Positions 2,185 through 38,499 of a stretch of DNA of 64,000 nt are shown piece after piece. The position numbers and the translations under genes were made by a program. The notes below the pieces were generated by a model, which had not been told where the DNA came from, did not search any database, and saw only the letters and a program-made list of their open reading frames with translations. The stretch is from Thiomicrorhabdus sediminis (GTDB lineage Bacteria > Pseudomonadota > Gammaproteobacteria > Thiomicrospirales > Thiomicrospiraceae), in assembly GCF_005885815.1 (NCBI RefSeq), contig NZ_CP040602.1, forward strand, positions 201,630 to 265,629, given 5' to 3'. Within the stretch, counting starts at the first letter, position 1; every line of letters starts with the position of its first letter.

Positions 2185-3015
2185 ATGTCAGATAATCAAG
2201 CACCAAAAAATTTGCAGGAAAAGCTAGAGCAAAATATCTTTGGCTTATTCCTAGCAACCGCATTGACAGTGTCAATTGCTGGTATTGTTGAAATCGTACC
2301 GTTGTTCTATCTCAAGTCTGCTGTGGATTACACAGAAGAAACAGATAAATACGGTAACGTTAAAAATGAAAAGTTCCCGGAGCTGGTTTGGGAACGTACT
2401 TTCACAGAAGATGAAAACGGCAATTTAGTTTCTGACAAGAAGCTATACAAGCAGGACAAAAACGGTAACTGGGTTCTAGGTGACTGGAAAGCCGGTGACG
2501 GAGTTCGTCCATACACTCCTCTGGAGTTGGCCGGTCGTGATCTGTATCTACGTGAAGGTTGTTATATTTGTCACTCTCAAATGATTCGTCCGTTCCGTGA
2601 TGAGCGTGAGCGTTATGGTCACTATTCTCTTGCGACAGAATCTATGTATGACCACCCAATGCAATGGGGGTCGAAGCGTACCGGTCCTGACCTAGCTCGT
2701 CTAGGCGGTAAATACTCTGATGAATGGCACGTGCTTCACTTGTTACGTCCACAGGATTTAGTGCCTGAGTCAGTAATGCCTGCTTACCCTTGGTTGGCAG
2801 AAACTCCAGTGTCTGAAGATTTCTTCGGTACCAAGCGTGATATGAAAGCGCGTTTGACTGCTATGCGTCAGTTAGGTGTTCCATACACTGATGAAGAAAT
2901 CGCCAACGCTGATGCCGCCATTGAAGGTAAAACCGAAATGGATGCGATGGTTGCATACCTGCAGGTACTAGGAACGATGGTTAAGCTGGATGACAGCAAA
3001 GTCTATCGTCAATAA
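2185..3015 (+). CDS. ccoO: cbb3-type cytochrome c oxidase subunit II, with unusual insert
   Basis: Membrane-anchored mono-heme c subunit passing electrons from CcoP to CcoN. It has one N-terminal helix (residues about 19-43) and a periplasmic cytochrome c domain with heme site CYICH (126-130) and an axial Met in [10 protein letters not shown]. The stretch [19 protein letters not shown] and the C-terminal [11 protein letters not shown] are typical. At 276 residues it is long: about 50 hydrophilic residues (about 50-105) separate the helix from the heme domain, where many homologues have a short linker. This insert carries three DxxGN motifs (Asp54, Asp76, Asp91). It follows ccoN by 81 bp. Confidence 0.97.
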
Positions 3016-3023
3016 GAGTAGTT

Positions 3024-3209
3024 GTGAGTAATCTAGAACGTTATTTTAGTACTGATTGGGCAGCAATGACTGCCCAAGACTGGGCTGGGTTGATCGTCAC
3101 GATTATTGTATTCCTCGGCATCGTCATTACGTTTTCCTTGGCATTGCGTCCAAGCAAACGTAAAGAGATGGAAGAGCAGAAATATAAGATTCTTGACGAC
3201 GAAGACTAG
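3024..3209 (+). CDS. ccoQ: cbb3 oxidase small subunit CcoQ/FixQ
   Basis: A 61-residue single-helix protein that stabilises the CcoNOP complex. The membrane segment is around residues 20-42 (GLIVTIIVFLGIVITFSLAL), followed by a charged tail, as in the CcoQ family. The start is GTG, eight bases after the ccoO stop, with TAAGAG as ribosome site. Position between ccoO and ccoP supports the call. Confidence 0.9.
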   Translation: MSNLERYFSTDWAAMTAQDWAGLIVTIIVFLGIVITFSLALRPSKRKEMEEQKYKILDDED

Positions 3210-3230
3210 TCATTTTGAGGAGAGTAAATT

Positions 3231-4139
3231 ATGGCACATCATAATCCATGGCCAGATGAAGGAAATACTGGTCATATTTGGGATGAAGATATTCGTGAGT
3301 TAGATAACCCGCCACCACTGTGGTGGATGCTGTCTTTCTATGCGGGGTTCATCATGATCGTTTTCTACGCGTTGTATTACCCAACCATTCCGTTAACGGA
3401 TGAGTTAGGCGGAAGCACCAAAGGTGTTGCCGGTTGGACACAGATCAACGAATATAATGACGACTTTAAAGTGTTGAATGATTGGCGTGATGCCAAGTTT
3501 GCTGATAAAGAAGAAAAGCTTGCTTCAATGTCAGTAGCGGAAATCATTAAAGATGAAGAGCTAAAGTCTTATGCGGTAGCAACTTCAAAAGTACTGTTCG
3601 GTGACTACTGTGCCGCTTGTCACGGTGCCGGTGGTGCAGGTAACCCTAACTTCCCAGTATTGGCTGATGATGATTGGCTATGGGGTGGTAATATCAACCA
3701 GATCAAAGCGTCTATCTCAAATGGTCGTATTGGTAATATGCCAGCTCGCGGTATGATGGGTAACCTAACCGATGAAGAAATCGATCAGGTAACCGATTAT
3801 GTTATCGCCTTATCTGAAGGTAAAGGTGGCGACGCTTCTGTTGCTGCTGGTAAAGCGGTTTATGCAAAAGGTATGTGTCTGGCTTGTCACGGTCCTGCCG
3901 GTAAGCCATTGGCTCCTGCTGGTGCGGCTAACTTGACTGACCAGGTATGGCGTTTTTCATCTGATCGCGCTGAGATTCGCAACGTTATCGCCAACGGTGT
4001 AAACGTTAAGAAAAACGGTCAGTATGTTGAAGGCACTCGTCAAGCTGTAATGCCTGCGTTTAAAGAACGTCTGCCTGATGCAGAGGTAAACATCAAGCGT
4101 CTAGCTGTCTATGTTCACGCTTTAGGTGGTGGTCAATAA
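3231..4139 (+). CDS. ccoP: cbb3-type cytochrome c oxidase subunit III (di-heme)
   Basis: Di-heme cytochrome c subunit, the electron entry point of the cbb3 oxidase. It has a cytoplasmic N-terminal stretch (GHIWDEDIRELDNPPPLWW, family typical), one helix at about 31-52, then two periplasmic cytochrome c domains with CAACH (127-131) and CLACH (216-220). The conserved GNMPARGMMGNLTDEEI and AVMPAFKERL supply the axial Met residues. At 302 residues it has normal length. A strong GAGGAGAG site precedes the ATG. Confidence 0.98.
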   Translation: MAHHNPWPDEGNTGHIWDEDIRELDNPPPLWWMLSFYAGFIMIVFYALYYPTIPLTDELGGSTKGVAGWTQINEYNDDFKVLNDWRDAKFADKEEKLASMSVAEIIKDEELKSYAVATSKVLFGDYCAACHGAGGAGNPNFPVLADDDWLWGGNINQIKASISNGRIGNMPARGMMGNLTDEEIDQVTDYVIALSEGKGGDASVAAGKAVYAKGMCLACHGPAGKPLAPAGAANLTDQVWRFSSDRAEIRNVIANGVNVKKNGQYVEGTRQAVMPAFKERLPDAEVNIKRLAVYVHALGGGQ

Positions 4140-5985: not shown

Positions 5986-6032
5986 GGTAGCGGTTATATT
6001 AGCTTGAAGTGATATTGACTATACTATTGAAG

Positions 6033-21126: not shown

Positions 21127-21255
21127 TAGATAGCTCTTTGTTTGAGTGGTTGTTTATCCCATTTTAATTGAGAAGCCTTTTTAATTATTGGTAAATCCTC
21201 AATTTTATCTATTAGGCTTCCCGTTACTATTTTTGCGTGCCCAAAAATAGTAACC

Positions 21256-21289
21256 ACAAACAAAGAACTTGGCTGAAGAGCCAAGAAAA
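21256..21289 (+). repeat. 34-bp module, first occurrence in copy A
   Basis: Begins ACAAACAAAGAACTT and contains the hairpin CTTGGCT-GAAG-AGCCAAG. It is absent from the same place in copies B and C, and matches 30 of 34 positions with 21692-21725. It lies just after the 13-bp hairpin. Confidence 0.8.
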
Positions 21290-21691
21290 AGGGCACCCTG
21301 CTGACGCAATCTATTTCACTAAACTTGTACGCTGAAAATCCTGAACTCGGCGAACAAGTACGCCTCAAACAGCAGGATTTCTTAAATGCGCCCTACGTTA
21401 AGTGAAATGAAGATTGCTTACAAAAGGGGACCAGTTCCGCGCACGTCATTTCCACGAAATGAAAAACAATCTATCGCGGGTTTTGAAAAAGATAAATCCA
21501 ATTGGGTTTAGGAAAAACGACTTTGACGCCAAAAATCCCTTTGGAATAAATAGTGCAGAGTTCTTAACGAAGTGAACGATTAAAAAATCTTGCTGTCCGA
21601 GCGTAGCGAGTTCAGGATTTTCAGTGAATGAGTTTTAGAACCTGCCTATTTATGGAGTAGGGTTCGTTTTTCGCTTACCTTTTGCCGAACA

Positions 21692-21725
21692 ACAAACAAA
21701 GAACTCGGCTGTAGAGACGAGAAAA
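21692..21725 (+). repeat. 34-bp module, second occurrence in copy A
   Basis: Direct repeat of 21256-21289, here placed in the loop of the right-hand hairpin. The outer stem changes from CTTG/CAAG to CTCG/CGAG, a compensated pair. Copies B and C have only a 6-nt loop at this place. Confidence 0.8.
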
Positions 21726-21834
21726 GGTAAGGTGAAGCCTATTAGATGAAGTTAAGGCAAATAAAGAAAATTAAAAAGGCTTCGCAATCAGGTTATTTAA
21801 TTTTACTCTGACCTCAATTGTTAGATTATTAGGG

Positions 21835-22420
21835 TTGAGAAGCCCTTTCTAGATTATCGTCATCCCTAATTTTCATATAGGGCTTCCCGTTACTTTATTT
21901 GCTTGCCCAAATAAAGTAACCAAACAAAAGGCACCCTGCTGACACTTTCTATTTCACTAAGCTTGTTTGCTGAAATTCCCGAACTCACTGCGCAAGCTTC
22001 GTTCGGACAGCGGGAATTTTTATACCCTCAAGGGGCACCTAGACCGCATCCTTCGCTAAGTGAAATAACGAAAGCTTACAAAAGGGGACCCGTTCCGCGC
22101 ACGCTATTTGGGTACAAAATAATGCAATTCATCGAGGGTTTAATTTTCCAACCAAATTTAATTGGATTTAAGAAAGAAGACTTTGACGCCAAAAGTCCCT
22201 TTGGAATAAATAGTGCAGAGTTCTTAACGAAATGAACGATGAAAAAATCCTGCTGTCCGAGCGTAGCGAGTTCAGGATTTTCAGTAAATGAGTTTTAGAA
22301 CCTGCCTATTTATGGAGCAGGGTGTCTTTTTTTGCCTACTTTGTTGGACAAGCAACAAAGTAGGGTGAAGCCTATTAGATGAAATTAAGGCAAAGAAAAG
22401 AAATTAAAAAGGCTTCGCAA
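21835..22420 (+). repeat. Structured palindromic repeat element, copy B (586 bp)
   Basis: Bounded by TTGAGAAGCC (21835-21844) and GGCTTCGCAA (22411-22420), 47 bp after copy A in the same orientation. The 13-bp hairpin is GTTACTTTATTTG / CAAATAAAGTAAC (21889-21901 with 21908-21920), with two base pairs changed relative to A and C and both compensated. Further stems: 21973-21981/22011-22019 (9 bp), 22245-22252/22273-22280, and CCTACTTTGTTG / CAACAAAGTAGG (22335-22346 with 22353-22364). GGCACCCTGCT (21930-21940) and AGCAGGGTGTC (22316-22326) face each other across the element. The right half is nearly identical to copies A and C. Confidence 0.92.
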
Positions 22421-22425
22421 TTAGA

Positions 22426-22988
22426 TTAGTTTTCCTCTGAAGCCATCTCTTCGTGTGTTTTTACATATTGAGCAGCTTGACCAAATGTTTCCATGAGATT
22501 GAATACTGTTTCTAAAGACATTAATTTCATATCTTTTAGTTCGTAGGGGTATCTCCAATCATTAAAAGGTTGGGCGTGCCCTGATTTGCCTGACAAAGCT
22601 AATTCGTTTAATTCACTTTCAAACACTTTACGTCTTTTAGTTAAGGCGTTTGTCAATGGTATCCCTGTGTTGTTATTGTGCATACCAATGATGATTTCTT
22701 GTAATTGAGGTGTTATCTTTTTCCATAGTAAATTGAGCTTATGTCCATGCATTTCTCGTTCCACATCTTCTCGGTTTTAGTCGATTTGAATACGAAAAAT
22801 TTGACTAATAATTCTAAAGAAAAAGAAGCGCAAGTCATTGCAGGAAATAAATAACGAGGGTCATTCATGTGTTCAATGTTATTTTGAATGATTTGTGCTG
22901 TATTGGCATAAGATACAGCGATACCGAAAATATCATTTGCTTCAAAATCGCCATCGGGAATTAAAAGTAAAGAAGAAGTATTTATCAT
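22426..22988 (-). pseudogene. Frameshifted HEPN-like protein gene
   Basis: Two overlapping minus-strand frames (22988 to 22713, then 22764 to 22426) look like one gene. The first frame carries SFSLELLVKFFVFKSTKTE and then loses sense; the second resumes as DVEREMHGHKLNLLWKKI. The joined product (about 185 residues) has the pattern of HEPN-type proteins: a helix with SLELLVKFF, then HGHKLNLLW, then a conserved NDWRYPYE stretch. Family assignment is moderate. The shift lies near 22760-22775 and no slippery heptamer is evident, so I call it a disrupted gene or a sequence error. It abuts copy B. Confidence 0.7.
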
Positions 22989-37525: not shown

Positions 37526-38080
37526 TTGCGAAGCCCTTATAAATATCGTTATTCCTTTGATTCCTATATTGGGCTTCACGTTACTATTTTTGCTTGCCCA
37601 AAAATAGTAACCACAAAAAGGGCACCCTGCTGACACTCTTTATTTCACTAAGCTTGTCTGCTGACATTCCTGAACTCGCTACGCTCGAACAGCAGGAATG
37701 CTTAAACGCATCCTTCGCTAAGTGAAATCACAAGAGCTTACAAAAGGGGACCCGTTCCGCGCACGTCATTTTGGTTCAACCACTTTCTTTTTATCGTAGG
37801 TTTTGAAATACCTAGAGATATTTTCCCATCTAAGAAAAAAGACTTTTACGACCTCGTCCCTTTGGAATAAATAGTGCAGAGTTCTTAACGCAGTGAACGA
37901 TTAAAAAATCCTGCTGTCCGAGCGTAGCGAGTTCAGGATTTTCAGTGAATGAGTTTTAGAACCTGCCTATTTATGGAGCAGGGTGTCTTTTTTTGCTTAC
38001 TTTGTTGGACAAGCAACAAAGTAAGGGGAAGCCTGATAGATGGGAATTAGGGTTTATCATGAATCAAATAGGCTTCTCAA
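37526..38080 (+). repeat. Structured palindromic repeat element, copy C (555 bp)
   Basis: Bounded by TTGCGAAGCC (37526-37535) and GGCTTCTCAA (38071-38080). Stems: GTTACTATTTTTG / CAAAAATAGTAAC (37580-37592 with 37599-37611), CATTCCTG / CAGGAATG (37665-37672 with 37693-37700), AAATCCTG / CAGGATTT (37906-37913 with 37934-37941) and CTTACTTTGTTG / CAACAAAGTAAG (37996-38007 with 38014-38025). GGCACCCTGCT (37621-37631) faces AGCAGGGTGTC (37977-37987). The left-half stem-loop with CTCGCTACGCTCG is the near reverse complement of the right-half one with CGAGCGTAGCGAG. It lies between convergent genes ending at 37484 and 38098. Confidence 0.92.
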
Positions 38081-38097: not shown

Positions 38098-38499
38098 TTA
38101 GATTAATTGAATTGCGCAATAGGTTAGTCCAACGTAACCTGAAATGAACGTGATAAGACCGCATAATGCTAATACCCAAATGAAAAAATCGATTACAGAG
38201 GTATTTTTGTTCGCATTATCAATTAATCCACTTAATTCTTTTCTCCAACGTTCACCAAACAAATAATCTCTAGCGATCACTAGAAATAACATGATTGTTA
38301 AGCTGATTATTGCTGTAGTTAATGACCACCATGAATAACCTAGGATGCTGGTAATATTTTGCGGAATTTCTTGATTGTTTATAAATAACCCTATGGATAT
38401 GGAAAGTGCTCCACCCGATAGAATAAATATAGCTTTTGTTAAAGAGTCCGCTCTATTTCGAACATCTTGTTGATGTGCGTTAAATTGCTCTAAGCTCAT
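38098..38499 (-). CDS. Small membrane protein of unknown function next to repeat copy C
   Basis: A 133-residue protein with hydrophobic segments at about 22-42, 57-78 and 105-130, and a basic stretch in between. No family recognised. It is an orphan abutting the repeat element, like the hypothetical genes next to copies A and B, which suggests an accessory gene. Confidence 0.65.
   Translation of the reverse strand: MSLEQFNAHQQDVRNRADSLTKAIFILSGGALSISIGLFINNQEIPQNITSILGYSWWSLTTAIISLTIMLFLVIARDYLFGERWRKELSGLIDNANKNTSVIDFFIWVLALCGLITFISGYVGLTYCAIQLI

Follow-up and report, generated by a model that had tools for sequence, protein, structure and literature searches.

Repeats in Thiomicrorhabdus sediminis as probable gene-free copies of widely distributed, non-autonomous, hairpin-ended gene cassettes

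In mobile insertion cassettes (MICs) the ends of an insertion sequence (IS) enclose passenger genes but no transposase, and the integron cassette consists of an accessory gene beside a folded site, attC, which is conserved in structure and variable in sequence. Close to the repeats reported here stand also the REPIN/REP doublets with the RAYT transposases (Bertels and Rainey, 2011; PMC3116915), the TIRtrons and TIR repeat families, whose terminal inverted repeats (TIRs) flank a transposase (Di Nocera, 2013; PMC3733652), and the MITEs (reviewed in PMC10969869). The inner-end structure of our repeats is not described in the available portions of these three papers, and the literature searched (open-licence full text, without figures) gave no description of a hairpin-ended cassette family, which apparently is undescribed. 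Mobile, non-autonomous and widely distributed gene cassettes with structured termini probably make up such a family, with the repeats of T. sediminis as its gene-free members.

The window, i.e., the whole analysed stretch of 64,000 nucleotides, spans bases 201630-265629 of a single 2,373,486-base contig. It contains three elements, copies A, B and C (Table 1), whose positions, common orientation, ends and order of parts were confirmed in the sequence as given in the initial annotation, together with the lack of a convincing gene within any of them; the alternative that the copies are one segmental duplication proved wrong. Aligned in register, head to tail, copies A and B are 92% identical over 178 nt and 88% over 75 nt. 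Each copy is an imperfect palindrome made of two inverted arms and a short variable middle; in copy C the left half (1-223) matches the right half (332-555) in inverted orientation at about 73%, and each copy holds one half-unit twice, in inverted orientation and diverged in sequence. The order of this half-unit from the outside in is: outer hairpin (GAAGCC..GGCTTC), inner hairpin (GTTACTATTTTTG-CTTGCC-CAAAAATAGTAAC in copy C), A-rich linker, GGCACCCTGCT or its counterpart, nested stem-loop and core. Folded as single-stranded DNA, copy C reached -98 kcal/mol against -57.3 ± 4.9 in 100 dinucleotide shuffles (z -8.4), none of which folded as low. The inner ends were located with R1, a covariance model built from 24 ends of many taxa. 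The right inner end of copy A, which an extra hairpin module interrupts, gave no R1 call at E ≤ 0.05, and the repeat search placed an extra small hairpin inside both end hairpins of this copy. Small hairpin modules of this kind (AACAAAGAACTCGGCT..GAG) lie at window positions 21252-21289 and 21688-21725 and also in loci L056, L057 and L078 (L numbers denote loci and G numbers genomes), occupying the same place in the end hairpins of several copies, sometimes in both arms. Next to copy B the small orphan ORF overlaps a second minus-strand ORF (22713-22988), and the two are perhaps one gene split by a frameshift.

Table 1. Positions of the elements, their parts and associated features in the window and in related loci.
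Feature	Record	Position	Strand	Basis
Copy A, full element, 620 bp	window	21168..21787	+	sequence, BLASTN, repeat search
Copy A, left inner-end motif	window	21223..21276	+	R1 match, 33.7 bits
Copy A, left core GTTCCGCGCACG	window	21434..21445	+	sequence
Copy A, variable middle between left and right cores; putative counterpart of the cargo site in relatives	window			comparison with relatives
Copy A, right core CTTTGGAATAAATAGTGCAGAG	window	21539..21560	+	sequence
Copy B, full element, 586 bp; 47 bp separate it from A	window	21835..22420	+	sequence, BLASTN, repeat search
Copy B, left inner-end motif	window	21889..21941	+	R1 match, 59 bits
Copy B, cores (22092-22103 and 22199-22220) with variable middle between	window	22092..22220	+	sequence
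Copy B, right inner-end motif, inverted	window	22315..22364	-	R1 match, 46.8 bits
Small orphan ORF, 3' end 6 bp from copy B	window	22426..22764	-	no Pfam family at E ≤ 0.1
Copy C, full element, 555 bp	window	37526..38080	+	sequence, BLASTN, folding
Copy C, left inner-end motif	window	37580..37632	+	R1 match, 49.9 bits
Copy C, left core GTTCCGCGCACG	window	37754..37765	+	sequence
Copy C, variable middle; putative counterpart of the gene position in relatives	window	37766..37859	+	sequence
Copy C, right core CTTTGGAATAAATAGTGCAGAG	window	37860..37881	+	sequence
Copy C, right inner-end motif, inverted	window	37976..38025	-	R1 match, 50 bits
133-aa orphan ORF, 3' end 18 bp from copy C	window	38098..38499	-	no Pfam family above cut-off
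RF02421 (Bp1_684)	L381	2250-2353	-	Rfam match
RF02421 (Bp1_684)	L381	5496-5607	+	Rfam match
RAYT with own near-identical inverted repeats, GTTCCCACGCTCCGCGTGGGAAC type	L457 (G677)	2866-3644		
RAYT with own near-identical inverted repeats, GTTCCCACGCTCCGCGTGGGAAC type	L456 (G364)	2301-3081		
Palindrome ACCAGGCCTGGT	L078	about 3028-3041, 3391-3405, 5991-6005		
Palindrome ACCAGGCCTGGT	L289	around 1545 and 1905		

The BLASTN search with copy C, proposed in the initial annotation, detected nine full copies, C included, in the 2.37-Mb own genome (E ≤ 5.2e-81), the other eight being 72-84% identical to C over the aligned part; a collapsed copy adjoining the one at 1407 kb retained little beyond the end hairpins. 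The relatives thought possible in other proteobacteria were present as well: C matched 19 of the 31 congeners (some over short pieces alone) and two of the five other genera of the family Thiomicrospiraceae, in all 22 of 58 genomes with the own genome counted and some matched only in short pieces. It was not found in the plasmid and phage collections. The inner end hairpin is not confined to the genus and reaches further phyla. At least 116 stretches from named genomes contained its exact pattern, GTTACTTT..GCTTGNCCAAA..AAAGTAACCAAA, the matches listed belonging to Gamma- and Betaproteobacteria, Desulfobulbaceae, Bacteroidota (including the isolate Xanthocytophaga flavus), Nitrospirae, Spirochaetes, Selenomonadaceae and Phycisphaerales, of which the last four are represented by metagenome-assembled genomes (MAGs), in which a contig could be misbinned. 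Of 274 genomes sampled evenly across the class, four had the exact pattern; the control pattern read backward had none among the matches listed for that sample, and zero also in 12 genomes chosen for having a match. The exact pattern was also found in one viral contig. R1 found matches at E ≤ 1e-4 in 50 of the 398 Pseudomonadota genomes scanned, which belong to 37 of the 213 genera, and among the matches listed many ends formed convergent pairs, i.e., complete elements, such as the six of 238-262 bp in G552 and the six of 574-621 bp in G694. Most convergent pairs inspected were shorter than 0.7 kb and gene-free. Thioalkalivibrio sulfidiphilus had four dispersed copies, 91-97% identical, and several of its contigs terminate within an element.

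Several further observations concern the distribution and form of the elements. The Paraburkholderia megaplasmids NZ_CP012748.1 and NZ_AP023181.1 gave 44 and 43 end matches, respectively, at E ≤ 0.001, a very high copy number. The copies in Selenomonadaceae MAGs (L153, L154, L162, L166, L239, L251, L259 and L266) appear single-ended, one end motif being followed mostly by about 150-200 bp of hairpins, and these Firmicute copies may be a different form of the hairpin-ended family. The short palindrome ACCAGGCCTGGT recurs at inner arm ends and near elements in congeners G021 and G030.

The inner hairpin has a stem of 12-16 bp and a 6-nt loop across the family. In alignment A2, which comprises 24 ends with 14-bp stems, 99.1% of the stem was paired and four pairs showed changes on both sides. 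A second helix was formed there by loop positions 17-20 with downstream positions 45-48, making a pseudoknot, whose third pair was C-G in 11 ends, T-A in 11 and G-C in two, with zero exceptions. Overall, 98.6% of the A2 cells were paired; the covariation score and the number of paired cells were equalled by none of 500 shuffles, and the number of both-sided pairs, like that of pair types, by two of 500. A covariance model, as asked for in the initial annotation, was built as R1, and stem and pseudoknot covaried in the 24 A2 ends relative to shuffles. A second set came from Methylomonas sp. LW13, where five loop forms (TGTC, TGGC, TCGC, CCGC and CGGC) occur over 36 ends and the downstream segment tracks each of them: 99.3% of the pseudoknot cells were paired, with both-sided changes in three of the four pairs. 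Since R1 contains no pseudoknot, this count is not circular. The covariation score of the LW13 ends was equalled by none of 500 shuffles, and the number of pair types was no higher than in shuffles (470 of 500 equalled it). The pseudoknot figures to be trusted are these A2 (24 ends) and LW13 (36 ends) counts: the loop complement counted in 178 of 184 ends is partly a product of selection, the filter having required either the complement or the word GnCA[CT]C, and in a looser search a 4-bp loop complement was absent in 28 of 103 ends.

The 3' arm of each stem is mirrored by the linker that lies between that hairpin and the loop-complementary segment. In 184 distinct ends the mirror identity was 438 of 479 positions, against 267 ± 10 with linkers shuffled among ends and 299 in the best of 2000 such shuffles; as sequences within one lineage are not independent, these counts are not probabilities. 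The base rule in the same set was G with C-G (153/156), A with T-A (283/289) and C with A-T (13/13), and with a stem G-C pair the linker base varied (A 9, G 6, C 1). The A-T to C sites came from the own genus, from the other gammaproteobacterial loci L116 and L157, from L207 and from the diverged G552 family (L369, L385). With a smaller set, comprising 103 ends, mirror identity came to 627 of 703 positions, compared with 524 ± 7 on shuffling; reading the linker as a direct repeat, which was rejected, accounted for 420 of the 703 positions. In one Thioalkalivibrio element the left and right ends are out of register, and each linker, by reading, matches its own stem. The base patterns suggest that the end may fold as a hairpin with a pseudoknot and a third strand; the mirror and pseudoknot rules alone do not discriminate DNA from RNA.

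Gene-bearing versions were found in five genomes. In L381 (G629) the inverted arms were 97.5% identical over 282 bp and enclosed five ORFs, among them PAAR (1.3e-9), Tae4 (4.2e-25) and DUF6402 (2.1e-34), the remaining two being without a Pfam match; part of this arm was matched by 24 plasmid records, mostly Burkholderiales megaplasmids. L193, from a Desulfobulbaceae MAG, carried four ORFs including GNAT and Cas3_HD-like genes and may be composite because it encloses a third arm fragment. The arms of L078 (congener G021) were 78% identical over 367 bp and enclosed a PLA1 phospholipase and an LRR-kinase gene; those of L351 (G669), 78% identical over 220 bp, enclosed two orphan ORFs without a Pfam match. 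The fifth genome, Methylomonas sp. LW13 (NZ_CP033381.1, which contains locus L142), contained 52 R1 ends at E ≤ 0.001. When listed ends facing each other at a distance of at most 4 kb were paired, 36 of them made up 18 pairs of 593-3767 bp and 16 stayed unpaired; each of the 18 loci had exactly two strong ends (36 R1 matches at E ≤ 1e-6). The arms matched in inverted orientation in all 18 pairs (74-93% over 119-346 bp; in L421 only the inner part), and outer repeats sit at the outer edges of the elements. The middle contained an ORF of at least 115 aa in 15 of the 18 pairs and no ORF of 75 aa in L410, L413 and L417. The Pfam scan took 21 of the 26 cargo ORFs of at least 75 aa and assigned 11 families with one protein each, including TrmO_N, DUF1152, PIN, MqsA, cupins and HTH; a shared recombinase or transposase family was not present among the 21 proteins, and comparison of the LW13 cargo with PADLOC gave five weak models. 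At 616 and 593 bp, the two smallest elements of LW13 are gene-free like the window copies and have arms of the same type. As gene-bearing and gene-free elements of LW13 share their arms, the unit is arm - middle - arm, with genes sitting in the middle.

Whether the elements are mobile palindromic DNA or a structured RNA had been left open in the initial annotation; a non-autonomous mobile palindromic element fits best, and the RNA reading was weakened. That the element is transcribed and works as a long hairpin RNA or other RNA element is very improbable, even if the very stable fold of copy C and the pseudoknot plus A-rich linker would suit it. RF02421, a predicted Burkholderia sRNA, points the same way in overlapping the outer hairpin of the L381 version at both ends, but its match covers only the outermost hairpin and adjoining flank and shares about 11 bases only with the inner hairpin. 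Among five loci outside the window only L381 had this Rfam match; the window was without any Rfam match at gathering scores, and the region around copy C at E ≤ 1. Identity to a catalogued family, a refutation foreseen in the initial annotation, came into question for one family, RF02421, at the outer end of L381, where what is listed as an sRNA candidate may be the end of a mobile element. The name Bp1_684 did not occur, by term search, in the main text of PMC3521395, a paper on such sRNA predictions. Against RNA stands the composition of the arm mismatches, counted on half-to-half alignments blind to pairing: G-T and A-C mismatches numbered 87 and 88 among the nine copies of the own genome, 95 and 79 among eight elements from other taxa (a count without the six Methylophilus elements, whose right ends the pattern missed) and 148 and 145 in 16 of the 18 LW13 elements (L410 and L421 omitted). 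Wobble pairs were scarce in the end stem and pseudoknot as well, with one GU cell of 628 in LW13 and one UG and two GU of 432 in A2. Selection for RNA on one strand would retain G-U over A-C, so the lack of an excess argues for a DNA-level structure, or for both strands being alike. Moreover, the motif is inverted between the two ends and a one-strand transcript would therefore carry it in the sense orientation once. Template-switch correction of quasi-palindromes could keep long arms complementary without selection.

Flanks were counted for 41 congener elements of at least 250 bp, shorter ones being dropped: 54 flanks faced the 3' end of a gene (median distance 84 bp) and 28 the 5' end (median 228 bp). 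Flanking orthologues were shared in 56 of 1455 inter-genome locus pairs, against about 1% expected from a window-size estimate rather than a shuffled control. The sites common to congeners were htpX, gltD, metH (copies A and B), recB, trkH (copy C) and lspA. Between genomes, elements at the same site were no more alike than those at other sites (right half 0.784 against 0.783, left half 0.767 against 0.770), and copies inside one genome were more alike (0.838 and 0.793): either the sites were struck repeatedly or the copies were homogenised within genomes. Accessory-gene hotspots, with a different small gene in many species, follow htpX and gltD on their downstream side (22 and 24 genomes, respectively), the small gene being often located between the conserved gene and the element. 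The 30 hand-picked genes at or near congener elements represented 23 Pfam families, one each, including Cass2, HEPN, PDDEXK_5, HSDR_N, Schlafen and NYN. An obligate pair of gene and element at htpX and gltD is not claimed for the host genus, as accessory genes occur there also without elements. The occurrence of these genes in element-free congeners, the sharing of sites across species without site-specific similarity and the preponderance of 3' gene ends would all agree with passive palindromic repeats of old spread, kept at insertion-tolerant hotspots, where genes arrive independently or through recombination between the inverted repeats. We regard this as unlikely in view of LW13, where the arm - gene - arm order recurs 15 times with two strong ends in each case and outer repeats at the outer edges, and in view of the near-identity of the L381 arms and of the covariation in the end structure; the same features fit mobile gene cassettes.

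Direct traces of transposition of such cassettes were sought at the element borders. Inspection of 4 Thioalkalivibrio, 6 G552 and 9 LW13 sites showed no target duplication, and queries of joined flanks gave no junction-spanning empty site; of the outcome foreseen in the initial annotation for a mobile element, the multiple copies were thus found and the empty sites were not. Homologues of a gene flanking one LW13 element were present in relatives, at eight loci where R1 called no end within some 1.5 kb; the other flank of the element was unmatched at these loci. Since neither a target duplication nor a clean empty site was observed, we infer mobility indirectly. In its favour are the dispersed Thioalkalivibrio copies, the cargo units, the patchy distribution and that LW13 flank gene at element-free loci; the divergence of the own-genome copies from C speaks against mobility, and the chromosomal sites shared among congeners also fit long residence.

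Two candidate enzymes were considered. The own genome had no match to PF01797 (Y1 transposase) at E ≤ 0.001, a threshold that a degenerate RAYT like the one of L422 (E 0.004) could escape. RAYT-like genes lay within or beside elements in LW13 (two), G364 (one) and G677 (one), and these were the only genomes with HUH-like ORFs near ends among 382 loci screened by motif pattern; NCBIfam identified the two LW13 genes as REP-associated transposases, one above and one below the cut-off. In G364 and in G677, whose left element end is weak (20.9 bits), the RAYT gene is bounded by inverted repeats of its own, 53-54 bp long and unlike the element ends, and therefore appears passenger-like. RAYT genes with such GTTCCCACGCTCCGCGTGGGAAC-type repeats resemble a TIRtron-like unit beside or within the cassette family. 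Repeats similar to GTTCCCACGCTCCGCGTGGGAAC were noticed also in flanks of LW13 elements. A giant REPIN or TIRtron family moved by a RAYT (HUH) transposase would account for the pairing of structured ends as inverted doublets, a principle common to both, and for the RAYT-like genes just mentioned, yet the own genome without a PF01797 match, the rarity of such genes near ends, the private repeats of the G364 and G677 genes and the inconsistent GTAG tag make RAYT an improbable cognate mobiliser. The integron integrase is unlikely in this role as well: the best own-genome match reached 85.7 bits against a cut-off of 265, and in the genus it exceeded the cut-off in 12 of 32 genomes, both with and without elements.

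The observations on the copies, their architecture, the end covariation, the taxonomic spread and the gene-bearing versions are established; our confidence in mobile gene cassettes is higher for the architecture than for the statement as a whole, and lower for the mechanism. A cassette would consist of two inverted arms of about 200-350 bp each, composed inward of outer hairpin, inner hairpin (12-16 bp, 6-nt loop), A-rich linker, loop-complementary segment and nested hairpins, and the site between them would be empty or hold one to several accessory genes. The ends would act folded, as single-stranded or extruded DNA and not RNA, and a putative trans-acting DNA nuclease or recombinase would recognise them and move the whole unit without target duplication. 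Genes would enter the middle and travel as passengers, and the window copies of 0.55-0.62 kb would represent empty cassettes at insertion-tolerant sites downstream of genes. A bolder proposal, which we advance as tentative and rather doubtful, is a hitherto unrecognised cross-phylum class of mobile cassettes with ends read as folded DNA, in which the hairpin and loop pseudoknot are joined by an antiparallel third strand (T-A to A, C-G to G, A-T to C), served by a putative host-encoded recombinase and stocked with interchangeable accessory, defence or interbacterial-competition genes, i.e., a second integron-like stocking route. If mobile cassettes are the right explanation, a family present in about one in eight of the sampled Pseudomonadota genomes, and in other phyla, has no published name that we found; orphan, defence and T6SS-effector genes would have a second, integrase-independent cassette route; and an element behaving like DNA would show clear evolutionary traces of a pseudoknot that obeys a third-strand rule. 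R1 would then allow hotspots and cargo to be delimited automatically, with the warning that predicted sRNAs such as RF02421 and spurious ORFs may sit in such arms. Hairpin-ended cassettes may thus be an overlooked means of shuttling spare genes among bacteria.

Compared with the known systems, the family shows partial likeness to each. As far as the available part of PMC3116915 goes, it resembles REPIN/REP sequences in the non-coding intergenic inverted hairpin doublets, the compensatory changes, the proposed mobilisation in trans and some tandem arrays, but is much longer (0.55-0.62 kb against a palindrome of about 20-40 bp), has the pseudoknot and mirror linker and encloses genes in some genomes. 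The feet of its hairpins vary (among them GTAAC, GTATC, GTACC and GTAGG) and do not consistently bear a GTAG tag, a cognate RAYT was not found, and no RAYT gene flanked by the repeat was detected in the own genome at E ≤ 0.001. The affiliation suggested in the initial annotation, a large relative of REP or MITE units, therefore holds for the inverted ends without a transposase and fails in the lack of a Y1 transposase match at E ≤ 0.001 in the own genome, the absence of target duplications at the sites inspected, the covarying pseudoknot and the genes in relatives. MITEs, as covered by the accessible part of PMC10969869, are similar in the missing transposase, inverted ends and intergenic sites; the cassettes differ in their structured ends, passenger genes in some genomes and occurrence in several phyla, no direct repeats were seen, and no parent IS was recognised, the 21 LW13 cargo proteins having no transposase family in common. 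To TIRtrons, in the part of PMC3733652 at hand, the likeness lies in long inverted repeats, moderately abundant families, some dimers and nearness to tyrosine transposases, whereas the cassette ends flank unrelated genes or nothing and nearby RAYTs bear other TIRs; because the distinction was made by description and not on TIR sequences, overlap with some TIR families of that paper is possible. In architecture the relatives, though not the window copies, resemble the MICs, since genes lie between their inverted and presumably mobile ends and a transposase is missing; the family has folded ends, and a related IS and target duplication were not seen. The integron attC offers what may be an analogous folded site next to an accessory gene, but attC is single, follows one ORF and is arrayed, and neither an IntI in the own genome nor a single arrayed attC was found; the cassette family has two inverted arms and is dispersed.
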